Shown: one piece after another, positions 5,014 through 49,677 of the stretch
How the letters are laid out: each line of letters opens with the position of its first letter
Position numbering within the stretch: position 1 is the stretch's first letter
Assembly (NCBI RefSeq): GCF_038446525.1
Contig: NZ_CP151792.1
Location: forward strand, 2,604,001-2,668,000
Source of the DNA: Methanolobus sp. ZRKC5
GTDB taxonomy: Archaea > Halobacteriota > Methanosarcinia > Methanosarcinales > Methanosarcinaceae
Length of the DNA stretch: 64,000 nucleotides
Direction: 5' to 3'
Program-made: the position numbers and the translations under genes
Notes under the pieces: generated by a model
Databases searched by the model: none
What the model saw: only the letters and a program-made list of their open reading frames with translations
What the model was told of the DNA's origin: nothing

Positions 5014-5408
5014 GCGTTATAGAAAATACCCGATGTCCTTGTTTTCCGATTTGTTCAAATTTCAAATTGGACGTGGAATGAACATAAACAACATCTTAAT
5101 CTCTCAGTTGAAATGCGACACTTACGTTGTTGCCAACTTCAATATCCTTTTTTTTTCTCACTTTTGAGGAAATAGCTCAACTTTCCCCTCAATTTCAAAG
5201 ATAGCCATAATAACAAATTATCGTTGAGATATTTAAGTTGAACAGAACTTCATTCTGTGGAAAACGTGCATAAACTGACCTAGAACAAATATCAAAATTA
5301 AATAACAGATATACCGCAATCGATTTTTATTTGTTTTTTTTTACTTTTCATATTGTTTTATGTTCTATTGTTTCATTTCGCTTTTCCAGTAAACGTAAAG
5401 TCTAAGTA
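5014..5408. other. 395-bp non-coding gap
   Basis: AT-rich stretch between the oxidoreductase terminator and the DUF134 gene. I see no plausible gene on either strand. It must hold the promoter of the downstream gene; a weak TATA-like tract (ttttatgtt) lies near 5357-5365. Confidence 0.5.
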
Positions 5409-5430
5409 GTTATGCATTATAATGCATAAC
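5409..5430. promoter_or_regulatory. perfect 22-bp palindrome directly before the DUF134 start codon
   Basis: The half-site GTTATGCATTA is followed without spacer by its exact reverse complement. The last base of the palindrome is adjacent to the ATG at 5431. The gene that follows carries a helix-turn-helix DUF134 domain, so an autoregulatory operator is the simplest reading (inference). No other copy was noticed in the window. Confidence 0.65.
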
Positions 5431-5961
5431 ATGGTACGTCCGAGAAAAAGGAGAATGGTAAACTTCGAGCATGATATCAGACACTTTAAGCCATCAGATT
5501 CCCGCATTGAAAGTATGGACGAGATTAACATAACTATTGATGAACTGGAATCATTACGATTAAGTTATCTTGAAAAAATGAAACAGGATGATGCGGCTCA
5601 GAAGATGGAAGTACATCAGTCAACTTTTCAAAGAACGCTACGCAGAACACTGGAGAAAATATCAGACGCTCTGGTTAATGGAAAATCAATACGAGTAGAA
5701 GGAGGAAATTATACAATGCCAGGAAAGGATGGAACAGGACCAAGAGGGCAAGGATCGGTCGGTGGACAAGGAAGAGGTCAAAGAGGACAGGGACAACAGC
5801 GCGGACAAAGAGGAAATCGCAACGGCAATGTACCAGTATCTGTCACACCAGCAGGACAATGCAAATGTCCTGGCTGTGGTTATGAACAAGCCCATCAGCC
5901 AGGAACCCCCTGTGCCCAGAACAATTGCCCTGAATGTGGAAAAGCCATGATCAGGAAATGA
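5431..5961 (+). CDS. DUF134 (UPF0251) HTH protein with Gly/Gln/Arg linker and zinc ribbon
   Basis: A 176-aa protein. Residues 1-95 match the UPF0251/DUF134 family: a basic start (MVRPRKRRMV) and a helix-turn-helix of sigma-70 region 4 type (ITIDELESLRLSYL ... QSTFQRTLRRTLEKI). Next comes a low-complexity linker of G, Q and R starting with MPGKDGTGPRGQG, and last a zinc ribbon with CKCPGC, a lone Cys and CPEC. DUF134 proteins are putative DNA-binding regulators of unknown target. The ATG at 5431 fits the family N-terminus better than the in-frame ATG at 5422, which lies inside the palindrome. No SD is present, so the mRNA may be nearly leaderless. The radical SAM gene starts 5 nt after its stop, so the two should be one operon. 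Confidence 0.8.
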   Translation: MVRPRKRRMVNFEHDIRHFKPSDSRIESMDEINITIDELESLRLSYLEKMKQDDAAQKMEVHQSTFQRTLRRTLEKISDALVNGKSIRVEGGNYTMPGKDGTGPRGQGSVGGQGRGQRGQGQQRGQRGNRNGNVPVSVTPAGQCKCPGCGYEQAHQPGTPCAQNNCPECGKAMIRK

Positions 5962-5966
5962 TCTAA

Positions 5967-6947
5967 ATGAAAACAAGGATCGTCTACGGACCAATTCTTT
6001 CAAGGCGACTTGGAAGGTCACTTGGAATAGATATTATCAGAAAAGGTGAGTTCAAGAAGAACTGTAATTTCGACTGTGCCTACTGTCAGCTTGGACATGT
6101 GGATCATAAAATATCAGACCCTTTGGAAGTTACAGGTCTTGTGAGAACTGAAGAAGTGATCGATGCCATAACTAATTATCACAAAAAAGTAGATGACCTT
6201 GATTACATTACATTTTCAGGGACATGCGAACCTACATTGAACCTAAAAATAGGTGATATGATCGAGGAGATAAGGAAGATCAGTGATGTTCCCATTTGCG
6301 TTATCACGAACTCATCACTTGTGACCAGAGAAGATGTCAGAAACAATCTGTCAAAAGCAGATATTGTGGTTGCTACACTGGTATCAGGAAATGAAGATAC
6401 TTTCCAGTCCATCAACAGACCTGCAAAGGGAATTGAAGTTAAGGATATCATCGAAGGGCTCAAAGAATTACAGAAAATGAAAGGTGCAAAACTCGCCATC
6501 GAAGTTATGCTCCTTAACTCAAATAATGGTTACCTTACAAATTCAAGCGATCAAGAGGTCAATAAGCTTATCGAAGTTCTCAAATCCATCGATCCGGATG
6601 AGATCGAACTACTGACCACAAGCCGACCTCCTGCTGAAGATTTTATCATTCCTGTAACGGAAAAAAGACTCAAGGAAATCGCACAGAAGTTTGATGAAGA
6701 ACTGGGCAGGGAAAGGATCAAGCTCGTACTTAAAGGCCTGAAAAGAAAAAGATCCAGCATCAAACATGAAAACCTTACAAATGAAGTCTATGACCTCATA
6801 CTCCGAAGACCATGTACATTTGATCAAACAATCCAATCTCTTGATATTGATAAAAATGACCTCCTGCCGATAATTAAAAATCTGCTCAATGAGAAGAAGA
6901 TAATAGAAATTGGCTCTGGAAAAGACTGTTATTATAGAGCAACATGA
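5967..6947 (+). CDS. radical SAM protein (COG0731 type)
   Basis: 326 aa. The N-terminus (IVYGPILSRRLGRSLGID) and the CNFDCAYCQLG motif, CxxxCxxC for the SAM-bound 4Fe-4S cluster, are typical of COG0731 Fe-S oxidoreductases; TFSGTCEPTLN is the conserved segment after it. The last ~75 residues (NLTNEVYDLILRRPCTFDQ...) look like a winged-helix domain. The substrate is not known; a tRNA or metabolite modification is possible. It lies 5 nt behind the DUF134 regulator and is probably controlled with it. Confidence 0.85.
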   Translation: MKTRIVYGPILSRRLGRSLGIDIIRKGEFKKNCNFDCAYCQLGHVDHKISDPLEVTGLVRTEEVIDAITNYHKKVDDLDYITFSGTCEPTLNLKIGDMIEEIRKISDVPICVITNSSLVTREDVRNNLSKADIVVATLVSGNEDTFQSINRPAKGIEVKDIIEGLKELQKMKGAKLAIEVMLLNSNNGYLTNSSDQEVNKLIEVLKSIDPDEIELLTTSRPPAEDFIIPVTEKRLKEIAQKFDEELGRERIKLVLKGLKRKRSSIKHENLTNEVYDLILRRPCTFDQTIQSLDIDKNDLLPIIKNLLNEKKIIEIGSGKDCYYRAT

Positions 6948-8674: not shown

Positions 8675-10296
8675 GTAACTATTCAGCCTAGCTCACTTCC
8701 ACCAAGCTGATTTCTTCATCCACGATTAATTCTGCAACTTTGGAACAAATGAATTGCCATAAAATATTGCACTAATTGCATCGATAACAGATTCAGAATT
8801 CTTATTAACAGTAGACACGTATCCTCTTATACGGCAGAAATTTTTTGCACCCTGTTTACTGCGGAAAGTACCTGATATCTTCTGCTGTACTTTCGTCATT
8901 CTGATATCTCTTTCAGCCTGATTGTTATCAAACGGAACGTTTTGGTCGTACATAAATCGCAAGATATCCTCTTTATGGCCAATAAACCTATCCAGCAAAT
9001 TCTTTACCGTGGTCTGCTTCTTACGTCCTCGTTTTTTAGACCGCACATTTGATTCCGGATCAGGAGGATTTTCATTCACTCCTAAACAAGTTATGTGATC
9101 ATAATCCTCACTGAACCTTTGAATTAGCTCAGTATCTAAAAGATCATTATCAACATGATGTTTAATGCATATCAAGAGATCACTCATTATCTTTGGCCAC
9201 TGTTGATCACTGTTTTCGGAAGCTCCAGTTAACTCTCGTAATAAATGTGCATTACATAATGAATGTTGACATTCATATTTGTTGTACGGTTTCCAAAAAT
9301 CATGTGTTGCAACACCAGTGTAACCTGGTAATATGCCCATAGCATCCATTGCTTCTGAGCCCCTTTTGCGATGTGCAAAATAATAGGTCAGTTTGTCTGT
9401 ACCTGCCACATGAAGCCAATTACGAACTGCATTTATTCTCATTCCTGTTTCATCCAGATTGATGACAGGAGATTCTTTCAGGAGATGTTTCACTGTATTT
9501 TCAAAAGCTCCAAGCTTCTCAAAACAACTACGTTCCGTGTTCACCAAAGTAGCAGGACTTATCTTGCATCCCAAAATATCAGAGAACAACTTGGTAACAC
9601 GCTGATAAGGAAGTAATTGGTAAGTGTGCAAATAAACTGCAAATGACTTAACTCGATGACCGTATTGAGTCGGCTGAGTTACACCATCTGGAAAAAGAGC
9701 TTTGTTTACATGAGAACATTTGGGACATGTTTTAATCTCGCAACGATGTTCAATGCAATTGATAGTTATAGGAGGAATGTCAAAGACCTGTCTTCTTTCA
9801 TAGTTAGAGGGAACAGAAGCTAACGATCTCCCACAATTGACGCATTGATTAACAGGATGAACAATAACTTCATCCGGATCATCATTTATTCTTAATGTAG
9901 TACCAGGATGACCGTTTTGACCACCTACATGCTTATTGGTCTTTTTTCTTTGACTTTTAACGGTTGGTTTATTCCGTGCATAAGAATCAGTAGAAGGTGG
10001 TTTGCTACTGTTGCGACTATTCTTTTCAAGCATTTCTTCCAAATGCCTGACACGCTCTTCAAGTTGTGCAATTTGGAGAGATTGATGTTCAATTATCCCA
10101 AGTAATCGAGTTACAAGTTCTACTACTGCTTCTGGACCAGCTTCATAAACTGCAAGTATTTCTTCGCGGTCTATACAAATCCCCTCAGATTGATAGACGT
10201 TTTTTATGATATTTTACTGAATATTTTTTAACACATAGAATGAAGCCATAGTATATTGTTTTTTGCATCATTAAAACAGTTAGGCTGAATAGTTAC
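8675..10296 (-). mobile_element. IS66-family element, copy 1 (ISBst12-like, single transposase)
   Basis: 1622 bp bounded by inverted repeats beginning GTAACTATTCAGCCTA. It is flanked by an exact 8-bp target duplication GAATCTTT (8667-8674 and 10297-10304), the size expected for IS66. It encodes only a TnpC-like transposase, as in the ISBst12 subgroup. It sits in the last codons of a RelE-type toxin gene. Further copies are at 14211-16983 and 38993-40615, and a short derivative with the same ends at 35092-35285. Confidence 0.92.
8726..10174 (-). CDS. IS66-family transposase (copy 1)
   Basis: DDE transposase with the IS66 hallmark KNSRNSSKPPSTDSY, a zinc-finger block (CVNCGRSL ... CEIKTCPKCSHVNKALFP), catalytic segments NLDETGMRI and VATHDFWKPYNKY, and NNQAERDIRM containing the last acidic residue. 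From the TTG at 10042 it would have 438 aa, but the frame stays open upstream for 44 residues with a coiled-coil start (DREEILAVYEAGPEA) that is normal for the family. A GAGGGG SD (10181-10186) sits 6 nt before an ATA codon at 10174, giving 482 aa; no ATG, GTG or TTG is near. This copy looks intact. Confidence 0.88.
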   Translation of the reverse strand: MDREEILAVYEAGPEAVVELVTRLLGIIEHQSLQIAQLEERVRHLEEMLEKNSRNSSKPPSTDSYARNKPTVKSQRKKTNKHVGGQNGHPGTTLRINDDPDEVIVHPVNQCVNCGRSLASVPSNYERRQVFDIPPITINCIEHRCEIKTCPKCSHVNKALFPDGVTQPTQYGHRVKSFAVYLHTYQLLPYQRVTKLFSDILGCKISPATLVNTERSCFEKLGAFENTVKHLLKESPVINLDETGMRINAVRNWLHVAGTDKLTYYFAHRKRGSEAMDAMGILPGYTGVATHDFWKPYNKYECQHSLCNAHLLRELTGASENSDQQWPKIMSDLLICIKHHVDNDLLDTELIQRFSEDYDHITCLGVNENPPDPESNVRSKKRGRKKQTTVKNLLDRFIGHKEDILRFMYDQNVPFDNNQAERDIRMTKVQQKISGTFRSKQGAKNFCRIRGYVSTVNKNSESVIDAISAIFYGNSFVPKLQN

Positions 10297-14290: not shown

Positions 14291-15437
14291 AGGATTTCGA
14301 TAAACTACCATCAATACCCATACAATTTAATAAAATTTAAATAATAGCAAAGCAAATTTACTATTATGGATTCTTTTACTGATTTTGCCTTAAATGAAGA
14401 ATATAAGCGTCTCCAATCTGTCGGAGATAAGCTTGCTGAAATTGAATATTTAGTAGATTGGAAGCCTTTTCGCCCTATTCTGGAGTCAATGTACATAAAC
14501 AGAACAGCTTCAGGCGGACGGCCTGAAGCTGATGTTATTGTAATGTTCAAGATGCTTGTTCTGCAACAATGGCATGGTCTTTCTGATGCTGAGCTTGAAA
14601 AGCAGTGTATTGACAGGATATCCTTTAGGAAATTCCTGGGATTTCCTGAATATGTACCAGACAGTACAACTGTCTGGTCATTCAGGAAGAGAATTATCGA
14701 CAATGGTAAAGAAAAAGCGGTGTGGGATGAAATGCAGAATCAGCTTGATGCTCTTGGTTTGAAGATTAAAAAAGGAATGATCCAGGATGCAACTTTTATT
14801 CACTCAGATCCAGGACATGCAAAAGCAGATGTACTCAGAGGAAAAGATGCGAAAACAAGAAGAAGCAAAGATGGAACCTGGACTAAGAAAAATGGTAAAT
14901 CTCACTTTGGATACAAACTTCATACAATTATTGATAAGGATTATGAACTAATCAGAAGATTTGAGACAACAACTGCATCACTTCACGATTCACAGGTTGA
15001 TCTGTCTGAAAAGGGTGAAGTGGTGTATAGAGATAAAGGATATTTTGGAGCAATAGCAAAAGGTTTTGCAGCAACAATGCAACGAGCTGTAAGAGGACAT
15101 CCTTTAGGAATAATGGATATCCTCAGAAATGAAAGAATAAGTGTGAAAAGAGTCCCTTGCGAAAGAGTGTATGCAGTGACAAAAGAAATATTTAAAACCA
15201 GAAAGGTTCTTGTTACAACTGTAGAAAGAGTGAATGCAAAAATGTTGATGACAGCTTTTTGTTTTAATCTGCATCAATTGAGGACACTAAAAACCAAAGG
15301 AGTAATTTAGGATAGCGGGAGCTATACTAAAAATAAGGATTAATGAAGAGAAATTAAACAAAATGATAAAAAATGAGAGGATATAATTGAGTTTGAATAC
15401 TTTAATGATCTAAAATGAGGGAATATCGAAATCCTCT
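14291..15437 (+). mobile_element. IS5-family element nested in IS66 copy 2
   Basis: Terminal inverted repeats AGGATTTCGATA at 14291 and TATCGAAATCCT ending at 15435 (right end probably extends to 15437). A 4-bp TCAG occurs on both sides (14287-14290 and 15438-15441), matching the 4-bp duplication typical of the IS5 subgroup. The exact outer base is uncertain by two positions. Confidence 0.8.
14366..15310 (+). CDS. IS5-family transposase
   Basis: 314 aa, the normal length. DDE residues lie in GMIQDATFIHSD, VYRDKGYFG and CERVYAVTKEIF; the N-terminal LVLQQWHGLSDAELEKQCIDR block and the SHFGYKLH segment are typical of IS5. The frame is intact, so the element may be active. Confidence 0.92.
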   Translation: MDSFTDFALNEEYKRLQSVGDKLAEIEYLVDWKPFRPILESMYINRTASGGRPEADVIVMFKMLVLQQWHGLSDAELEKQCIDRISFRKFLGFPEYVPDSTTVWSFRKRIIDNGKEKAVWDEMQNQLDALGLKIKKGMIQDATFIHSDPGHAKADVLRGKDAKTRRSKDGTWTKKNGKSHFGYKLHTIIDKDYELIRRFETTTASLHDSQVDLSEKGEVVYRDKGYFGAIAKGFAATMQRAVRGHPLGIMDILRNERISVKRVPCERVYAVTKEIFKTRKVLVTTVERVNAKMLMTAFCFNLHQLRTLKTKGVI

Positions 15438-48963: not shown

Positions 48964-49677
48964 ATGAAAGAATATTTCAGGTTGAAAGAAACCATTGTAA
49001 CGATTCAGGCCGACACTTCCTCTCACATAGAGGTAGCTCGTGAAGCCATAAGGGTGCATCGCAGGGAGTTGGAATCGTATATTTCTTCAGACCAGTTCTT
49101 CCAGAGTACTCTGGAAGCATATGACCTGGATGATGATTTTCCCGAAGTTGTGAGGAGAATGGTTGAAGCCGGAAACGCAATGGGTATAGGTCCCATGAGT
49201 GCCGTTGCCGGTACTATCTCTGCCCTTGCAGTTGAAGCTATGGTAAATGCAGGTGCAAGTTTTGCAATGGTGGATAATGGCGGGGATATAGCTATCACCA
49301 ATGACCGTCCGGTGCTAATGGGTATTTATGCCGGTAATTCTCCTTTGAAAGACCTCGGTTTTGTAATCGAGCCCCGGGATTCCATAACAGGTGTGTGCAC
49401 TTCTTCAGGTAGTGTCGGTCCTTCTATAAGTTTTGGGATGGCTGATGCAGCCGTTGTTTTCTCCGATAATGTCTCGTTGGCAGATTCGGCAGCCACAGCT
49501 CTTGGAAATAACACAGAGGTTGGAAAAGAAGCTGTTGAGCTTTCATTTGATGCGGTGAAAAATGTTACAGGAATAAAAGGTGCTATTGTTATTCAGGGGG
49601 AGTATATGGGATTCTGGGGTGATGTGCCTGAGATTCAAAGAGCTGATGTCAGATATGAGTGTATCACAAAAGGCTAA
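48964..49677 (+). CDS. UPF0280/COG2122 protein (ApbE-like), homocysteine synthesis
   Basis: 237 aa. [33 protein letters not shown] at the N-terminus, [23 protein letters not shown] and [12 protein letters not shown] are hallmarks of COG2122, distantly related to ApbE flavin transferases. The M. acetivorans relative (MA1715) was linked genetically to homocysteine synthesis; here it sits 31 nt behind the ferredoxin gene, which supports the same role. Confidence 0.88.

Follow-up and report, generated by a model that had tools for sequence, protein, structure and literature searches.

A perfect 22-bp palindrome, GTTATGCATTATAATGCATAAC, stands directly before the ATG (position 5431) of a gene for a helix-turn-helix (HTH) protein in the window, the 64,000-nucleotide stretch of the Methanolobus sp. 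ZRKC5 genome analysed here, and its place raises the question of whether it works as DNA, as RNA or not at all. The first-pass annotation had described a palindrome ending on the base before the start codon, as the letters of the window bear out, and had read it either as a tight autoregulatory operator of the protein encoded behind it or as a translational switch.

The palindrome and the probable operon behind it

The palindrome is the longest perfect one in the window; when this stretch was simulated 200 times with a Markov model, two of the simulations contained a palindrome of at least 22 bp. The runner-up is a 20-bp perfect palindrome, CTTCCAGAGTACTCTGGAAG, at 49098-49117, apparently within a coding frame. 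In the whole 3.05-Mb genome the motif TTATGCATN4ATGCATAA has a single exact copy, which is this site, followed by three matches with two mismatches and 28 with three. A broad regulon in this genome was considered and rejected, there being one exact site and three two-mismatch matches that, when these three were inspected, looked unconvincing.

The mechanically called open reading frame begins at an in-frame ATG at 5422, within the palindrome; the start at 5431 (Table 1) is supported because orthologues begin with (M-x-)RPRK or RPKK. No Shine-Dalgarno sequence was seen by eye upstream of ATG 5431, in agreement with the first-pass annotation. The radical SAM gene starts 5 nt after the regulator gene and probably belongs to the same operon. 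In 36 of 54 loci a relative of this gene accompanies the regulator, whereas 14 of the 54, several with short flanks, show neither such a relative nor nifB2. Downstream of the operon, two open reading frames (8726-10042 and 14366-15310) resemble insertion-sequence transposases by eye.

Table 1 Features of the proposed autoregulated operon in the window.
Feature	Position	Strand	Basis or remarks
TATA-box position of close relatives, degenerate here	5401..5408	+	tctaagta; weak or putative TATA box
Proposed operator, GTTATGCATTATAATGCATAAC	5409..5430	.	conserved 20-bp core TTATGCAT-TATA-ATGCATAA at 5410-5429
DUF134 HTH protein, proposed autoregulator	5431..5961	+	Pfam PF02001; alignment; AlphaFold model; Foldseek
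Radical SAM protein, probable second gene of operon	5967..6947	+	Pfam PF04055; neighbourhood survey

The regulator protein

The regulator gene encodes a 176-aa protein, residues 2-95 of which match DUF134 with 75 bits against a cut-off of 27 (E 7.3e-21). Beyond this domain lie a G/Q/R-rich linker with an MPGKDGTGP motif and a C-terminal ribbon whose six cysteines and one histidine are invariant in 31 aligned sequences. An HQST segment, also invariant in the 31 sequences, sits where a long third helix begins; this helix is taken for the recognition helix, and the invariance of HQST is in line with a near-invariant operator site. Apart from DUF134, Pfam gave a sub-threshold match to sigma-70 region 4 only, and an Lrp/AsnC domain was absent. 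The NCBIfam equivalog NF003257 (PRK04217) scored 56.7 bits against a cut-off of 115, so that the regulator is not filed under it.

The AlphaFold model of the monomer had a mean pLDDT of 69 and a pTM of 0.39. The HTH (residues 31-90, block means of 83-93 pLDDT) and the ribbon (84-88) were predicted with confidence, the N-terminus and linker were not. In Foldseek the HTH resembled the DNA-binding domains of sigma region 4, DeoR and NarL, weakly (best E 0.027, none at 0.001), and an alignment-based sequence search of solved structures returned no useful relative (best E 0.045).

Matches to the regulator at E 0.001 were found in 97 of the 111 family genomes. The zinc-ribbon type, taken at E 1e-20 or better, was confined to 54 of 237 class genomes, every one inside Methanosarcinaceae; the seven named records among the orthologue loci are from Methanosarcina (four), Methanococcoides (two) and a Methanosarcinaceae archaeon (one). 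The regulator frame is broken in two of the 54 (G001 and G036).

Conservation of the site at orthologue promoters

Promoters could be read in 53 of the 54 orthologue genomes, the contig of the remaining one (G053) ending inside the regulator gene. They gave 56 sequences, three of which are second tandem copies, two of those decayed; a paralogue locus (L001) and two duplicates (L003 and L072) were left out. The first-pass annotation had proposed looking for the same palindrome before DUF134 genes of relatives and had counted a lack of such conservation among the findings that would refute its reading. The reading survived this check: TTATGCAT-N4-ATGCATAA was present beside the start codon in all 56, with 13-16 of its 16 fixed bases (16, 15, 14 and 13 bases in 21, 28, 6 and 1 promoters, respectively) and in 23 distinct versions. 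The arm columns held 1.82 bits on average and the region 13-40 nt upstream 0.20 bits; the flanks are not conserved. The gap from site to start codon was -1, +1 and +2 nt in 14, 15 and 25 of the 54 promoters with an in-frame start, a set that omits one decayed copy (L058_434) and one promoter lacking such a start (L069). In four genomes of one genus (g13; L055, L058, L059 and L120), one of two tandem regulator copies has decayed and a strict operator still precedes it.

Position of the site relative to the promoter

Of 55 promoters (the decayed copy L058_434 being omitted again), 38 have an A/T run of at least 6 nt in the 20 nt preceding the site, and 17 have only shorter runs. The end of the run in those 38 is separated by 0-8 nt from the site and by 20-27 nt (median 24) from the start codon. 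For Methanolobus psychrophilus, the available portion of PMC5378194 places promoter elements about 19-22 nt from the start in 81.6% of primary transcripts and describes about 16% of its transcripts as leaderless. At a TATA-like run 20-27 nt before the start codon, transcription is expected to begin at or near the ATG, so that the mRNA would be leaderless and the palindrome would lie between TATA box and start, outside the predicted mRNA, as befits a DNA operator and not an RNA hairpin. The promoter in the window has no A/T run longer than 4 nt in the 20 nt preceding the core; at the position equivalent to 5401..5408, close relatives carry cctatata or tctatatg. The degenerate box is a point against a strong promoter in this genome.

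Co-occurrence of the site with the regulator

The strict pattern, TTNTGCATNNNNATGCATWA, was scanned in the 111 family genomes and in 126 other genomes of the class. It occurred in 46 family genomes, namely 44 of the 54 with an orthologue and two of the 57 without one (G009 and G067), an association with a Fisher p of 2e-18 if shared ancestry is ignored. In 43 of the 44 the strict site is at the regulator gene; the other (G030) has it at another gene only, its regulator promoter carrying a 14/16 variant. Of the 10 genomes that have the orthologue but no strict match, nine hold a variant differing by one to three bases at the corresponding position, and the tenth is that with the truncated gene (G053). 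As for the two exceptions, G009, an assembly 94% complete, has two strict sites and G067 one, with no orthologue detected in either. In the genus of the window the site was found in none of the 21 genomes lacking the orthologue. Outside the family it was found in one of 126 genomes (G149), with no DUF134 reading frame directly behind it, and a control pattern, read backwards, gave single matches in five family genomes.

The site was also absent from all 21 loci examined of a DUF134 paralogue without the ribbon (best matches 9-12 of 16), which in the window's genome adjoins Mrp-like and NifX-like genes. A single GTGCATAA half-site occurs shortly before the ATG of this paralogue in some genera (L162, L163, L165, L166, L174, L001, L167, L168 and L169), and is perhaps a related but different operator.

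Sites before nifB2 and other genes

Of the 62 strict sites of the family, 49 belong to the regulator gene (a count that takes in decayed tandem copies and a single copy at a contig end), eight precede a nifB2-type gene and five lie elsewhere. Two nifB matches (E 1e-40) were present in 11 genomes, the duplicate loci L185 and L187 being omitted from the nifB counts. In seven of these the operator precedes one copy, and in the other four (G045, G052, G054 and G059, all of the window's genus) one nifB follows the regulator gene at a distance of about 70-250 nt; only one nifB is present in the window's genome. The eighth operator-bearing nifB2 is the sole nifB found in G004 (83% complete), and groups with the other seven. 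Among the nifB1 copies, about 108 in number, none of the 18 examined had the site within 300 nt upstream (282 nt in one case; best matches 9-11 of 16).

Before nifB2, 109-161 nt separate the start of the site from the first aligned NifB residue, and the site borders a TATA box in seven of eight cases, G004 having none there. Since adjacency to the TATA box is kept over this range of distances, the site appears to be placed relative to the promoter and not to the start codon. In a nifB tree of 52 rows (49 different), the operator-bearing nifB2 and the nifB2 behind the regulator gene formed separate groups, and forcing the two together was rejected (p-AU 0.0145, a nominal value because the grouping was chosen on inspection of the tree). 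The link between the regulator and an extra nifB therefore probably arose twice.

A similar leader was noticed between operator and nifB2 in six loci (L111:3001-3120, also L103, L105, L107, L113 and L114), containing an inverted repeat rich in GC (gggcgcatccgaacccttgcgcc in L111) as well as a ggagg that resembles a Shine-Dalgarno sequence; the leader could be a second layer of control. A search of Rfam with three nifB2 loci (L111, L112 and L102) gave two matches, both far under the family cut-offs.

As to the remaining sites, those that precede a DUF5320-like gene (G029 and G030) lie between divergent genes, which makes their target ambiguous, and in L108:3001 and L109:3001 the operator stands between a DUF5320-like gene and a divergent isopropylmalate-dehydratase-like gene. 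In L108, genes that by eye look DtxR-like and FeoA-like come next, a hint of a link to iron. For the third-type sites of G006 and G009 no clear target gene was found. In genus g5 a further strict operator (L104:3001 and L106:2633), with no clear promoter geometry, lies near two genes named by eye, one for a small protein (132 aa) that is HTH-like and one that is cytochrome-biogenesis-like.

Role of the palindrome

The conservation of the site, its position, its co-occurrence with the gene and its copies at further genes, all read from sequence, together with the TATA geometry, strongly favour the first of the two readings originally proposed. The palindrome is thus very likely an operator in the promoter of the DUF134-zinc-ribbon gene, bound by the product of that gene and serving negative autoregulation of a leaderless operon, and the same operator would control the duplicated nifB of relatives. 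A dimer, assumed from the dyad of the site, would occupy both half-sites, TTATGCAT and ATGCATAA, within the roughly 22 bp between TATA box and transcription start, and once bound would block recruitment of RNA polymerase, so holding down both the regulator and the radical SAM enzyme. In relatives the duplicated nifB would come under the same operator. The six-cysteine C-terminal domain is probably a sensor, responding to metal, Fe-S or redox state, and its signal would release the protein; only the six cysteines and the nifB and radical SAM neighbours point to a signal of this nature.

Several findings were counted against the operator: the degenerate TATA box of the window, the 17 of 55 promoters with no 6-nt A/T run, the sites without an orthologue in G009 and G067, the third-type sites of G006 and G009, the broken frames of G001 and G036 before which a variant site remains, the weak Foldseek matches, the mean pLDDT of 69 in a model of the monomer, and the nifB2 of G004.

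That the protein acts at this site as an activator or a dual regulator, and not as a simple repressor, is unlikely. The sequence is silent on the sign of regulation and archaeal Lrp proteins are capable of both, but LrpA of Pyrococcus furiosus, binding between TATA box and start, excludes RNA polymerase from its own gene (both points from the available portion of PMC2995911).

It is decidedly unlikely that the site serves some other regulator as operator, with the DUF134 protein as just one of its targets. The link between protein and DNA comes from inference, and the two genomes with sites and no detected orthologue would fit such an arrangement. Against this, the sites track the DUF134-zinc-ribbon gene and 49 of 62 stand at its promoter, the gene encodes an HTH protein with an invariant HQST where the site is nearly invariant too, and the site is absent from all 18 nifB1 copies examined.

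The second original reading, a translational switch in which the transcribed palindrome folds into a hairpin hiding the start codon, has become very improbable. The RNA of the window can indeed form a 9-bp hairpin adjoining the AUG (-13.9 kcal/mol for 5409-5460), no Shine-Dalgarno sequence is seen by eye, and in one orthologue (L014) both arms have changed in a way that preserves pairing. However, 38 of 55 promoters have a TATA-like run that stops 0-8 nt short of the palindrome, which predicts a transcript that begins at about the ATG, and all 10 positions can form Watson-Crick pairs in only 13 of the 56 sites, 20 having a T-T mismatch at position 3. Across the 56 sites the change in L014 is the single compensatory one, against frequent unpaired positions 2, 3 and 9. 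The gap to the start codon varies where the arms hardly do, and before nifB2 the site lies 109-161 nt from the first aligned residue, mostly adjoining a TATA box.

A chance palindrome or conserved N-terminal coding sequence, for which the 2 of 200 simulated windows and the in-frame ATG within the palindrome might speak, is already refuted by conservation, the site being present in 56 of 56 readable promoters between flanks that are not conserved and the strict pattern in one of 126 background genomes, while three start-codon gaps 1-3 nt apart do not keep the frame, so that the site is not accounted for by conservation of a reading frame.

With the operator taken as the preferred reading, a wider and more tentative proposal is that DUF134-zinc-ribbon proteins are repressors responding to Fe-S or metal status, each with a tiny one-operator regulon, and that the duplicated nifB was captured twice, once behind the regulator and once by an operator of its own. 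This is possible, with the balance somewhat against it. If true, it would give methanogens a switch reserved for a second cofactor pathway of the NifB type. The link of the regulator to the duplicated nifB was unexpected, and we know of no role for the duplicated NifB-type copies in these methanogens. DUF134, a domain of unknown function, would thereby gain a candidate operator and a small regulon and be tied to NifB-type radical SAM enzymes.

Comparison with known systems

In the available portions of the literature retrieved for DUF134, UPF0251, COG1342 and PF02001, no function or operator was found; nor was the operator recognised, among the matches listed, in that retrieved for Methanosarcina nifB, DUF5320/MTH1175 and the letters of the half-sites, and for Methanosarcina autoregulation there was no match. 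The protein shares the domain at residues 2-95 with the rest of the DUF134 / UPF0251 / COG1342 family (PF02001), and differs from other DUF134 proteins in that its subfamily has the G/Q/R-rich linker and the six-cysteine C-terminal domain.

The HTH domains of the NarL/LuxR and DeoR types have a similar fold in Foldseek, with weak E values of about 0.2-0.6. Proteins of these types bind inverted repeats, the half-sites of which differ from TTATGCAT and ATGCATAA, and unlike them the regulator has neither a receiver nor a sugar-binding domain in Pfam.

An archaeal autoregulatory operator is in itself of a kind already known, here proposed for a protein family with no function found in the portions of the literature searched. 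The closest precedent is LrpA of P. furiosus, which, together with TBP and TFB, occupies the DNA bordering its own TATA box on the downstream side and denies RNA polymerase access (available portion of PMC2995911). The DUF134 regulator differs from LrpA in its family, its cysteine ribbon and its lack of an Lrp match in Pfam, in having nifB-type genes as additional targets, and in being known here from sequence. Like LrpA it is an archaeal HTH regulator that would bind its own promoter downstream of the TATA box, preventing recruitment of RNA polymerase, and by analogy we propose the same mode of action for it.
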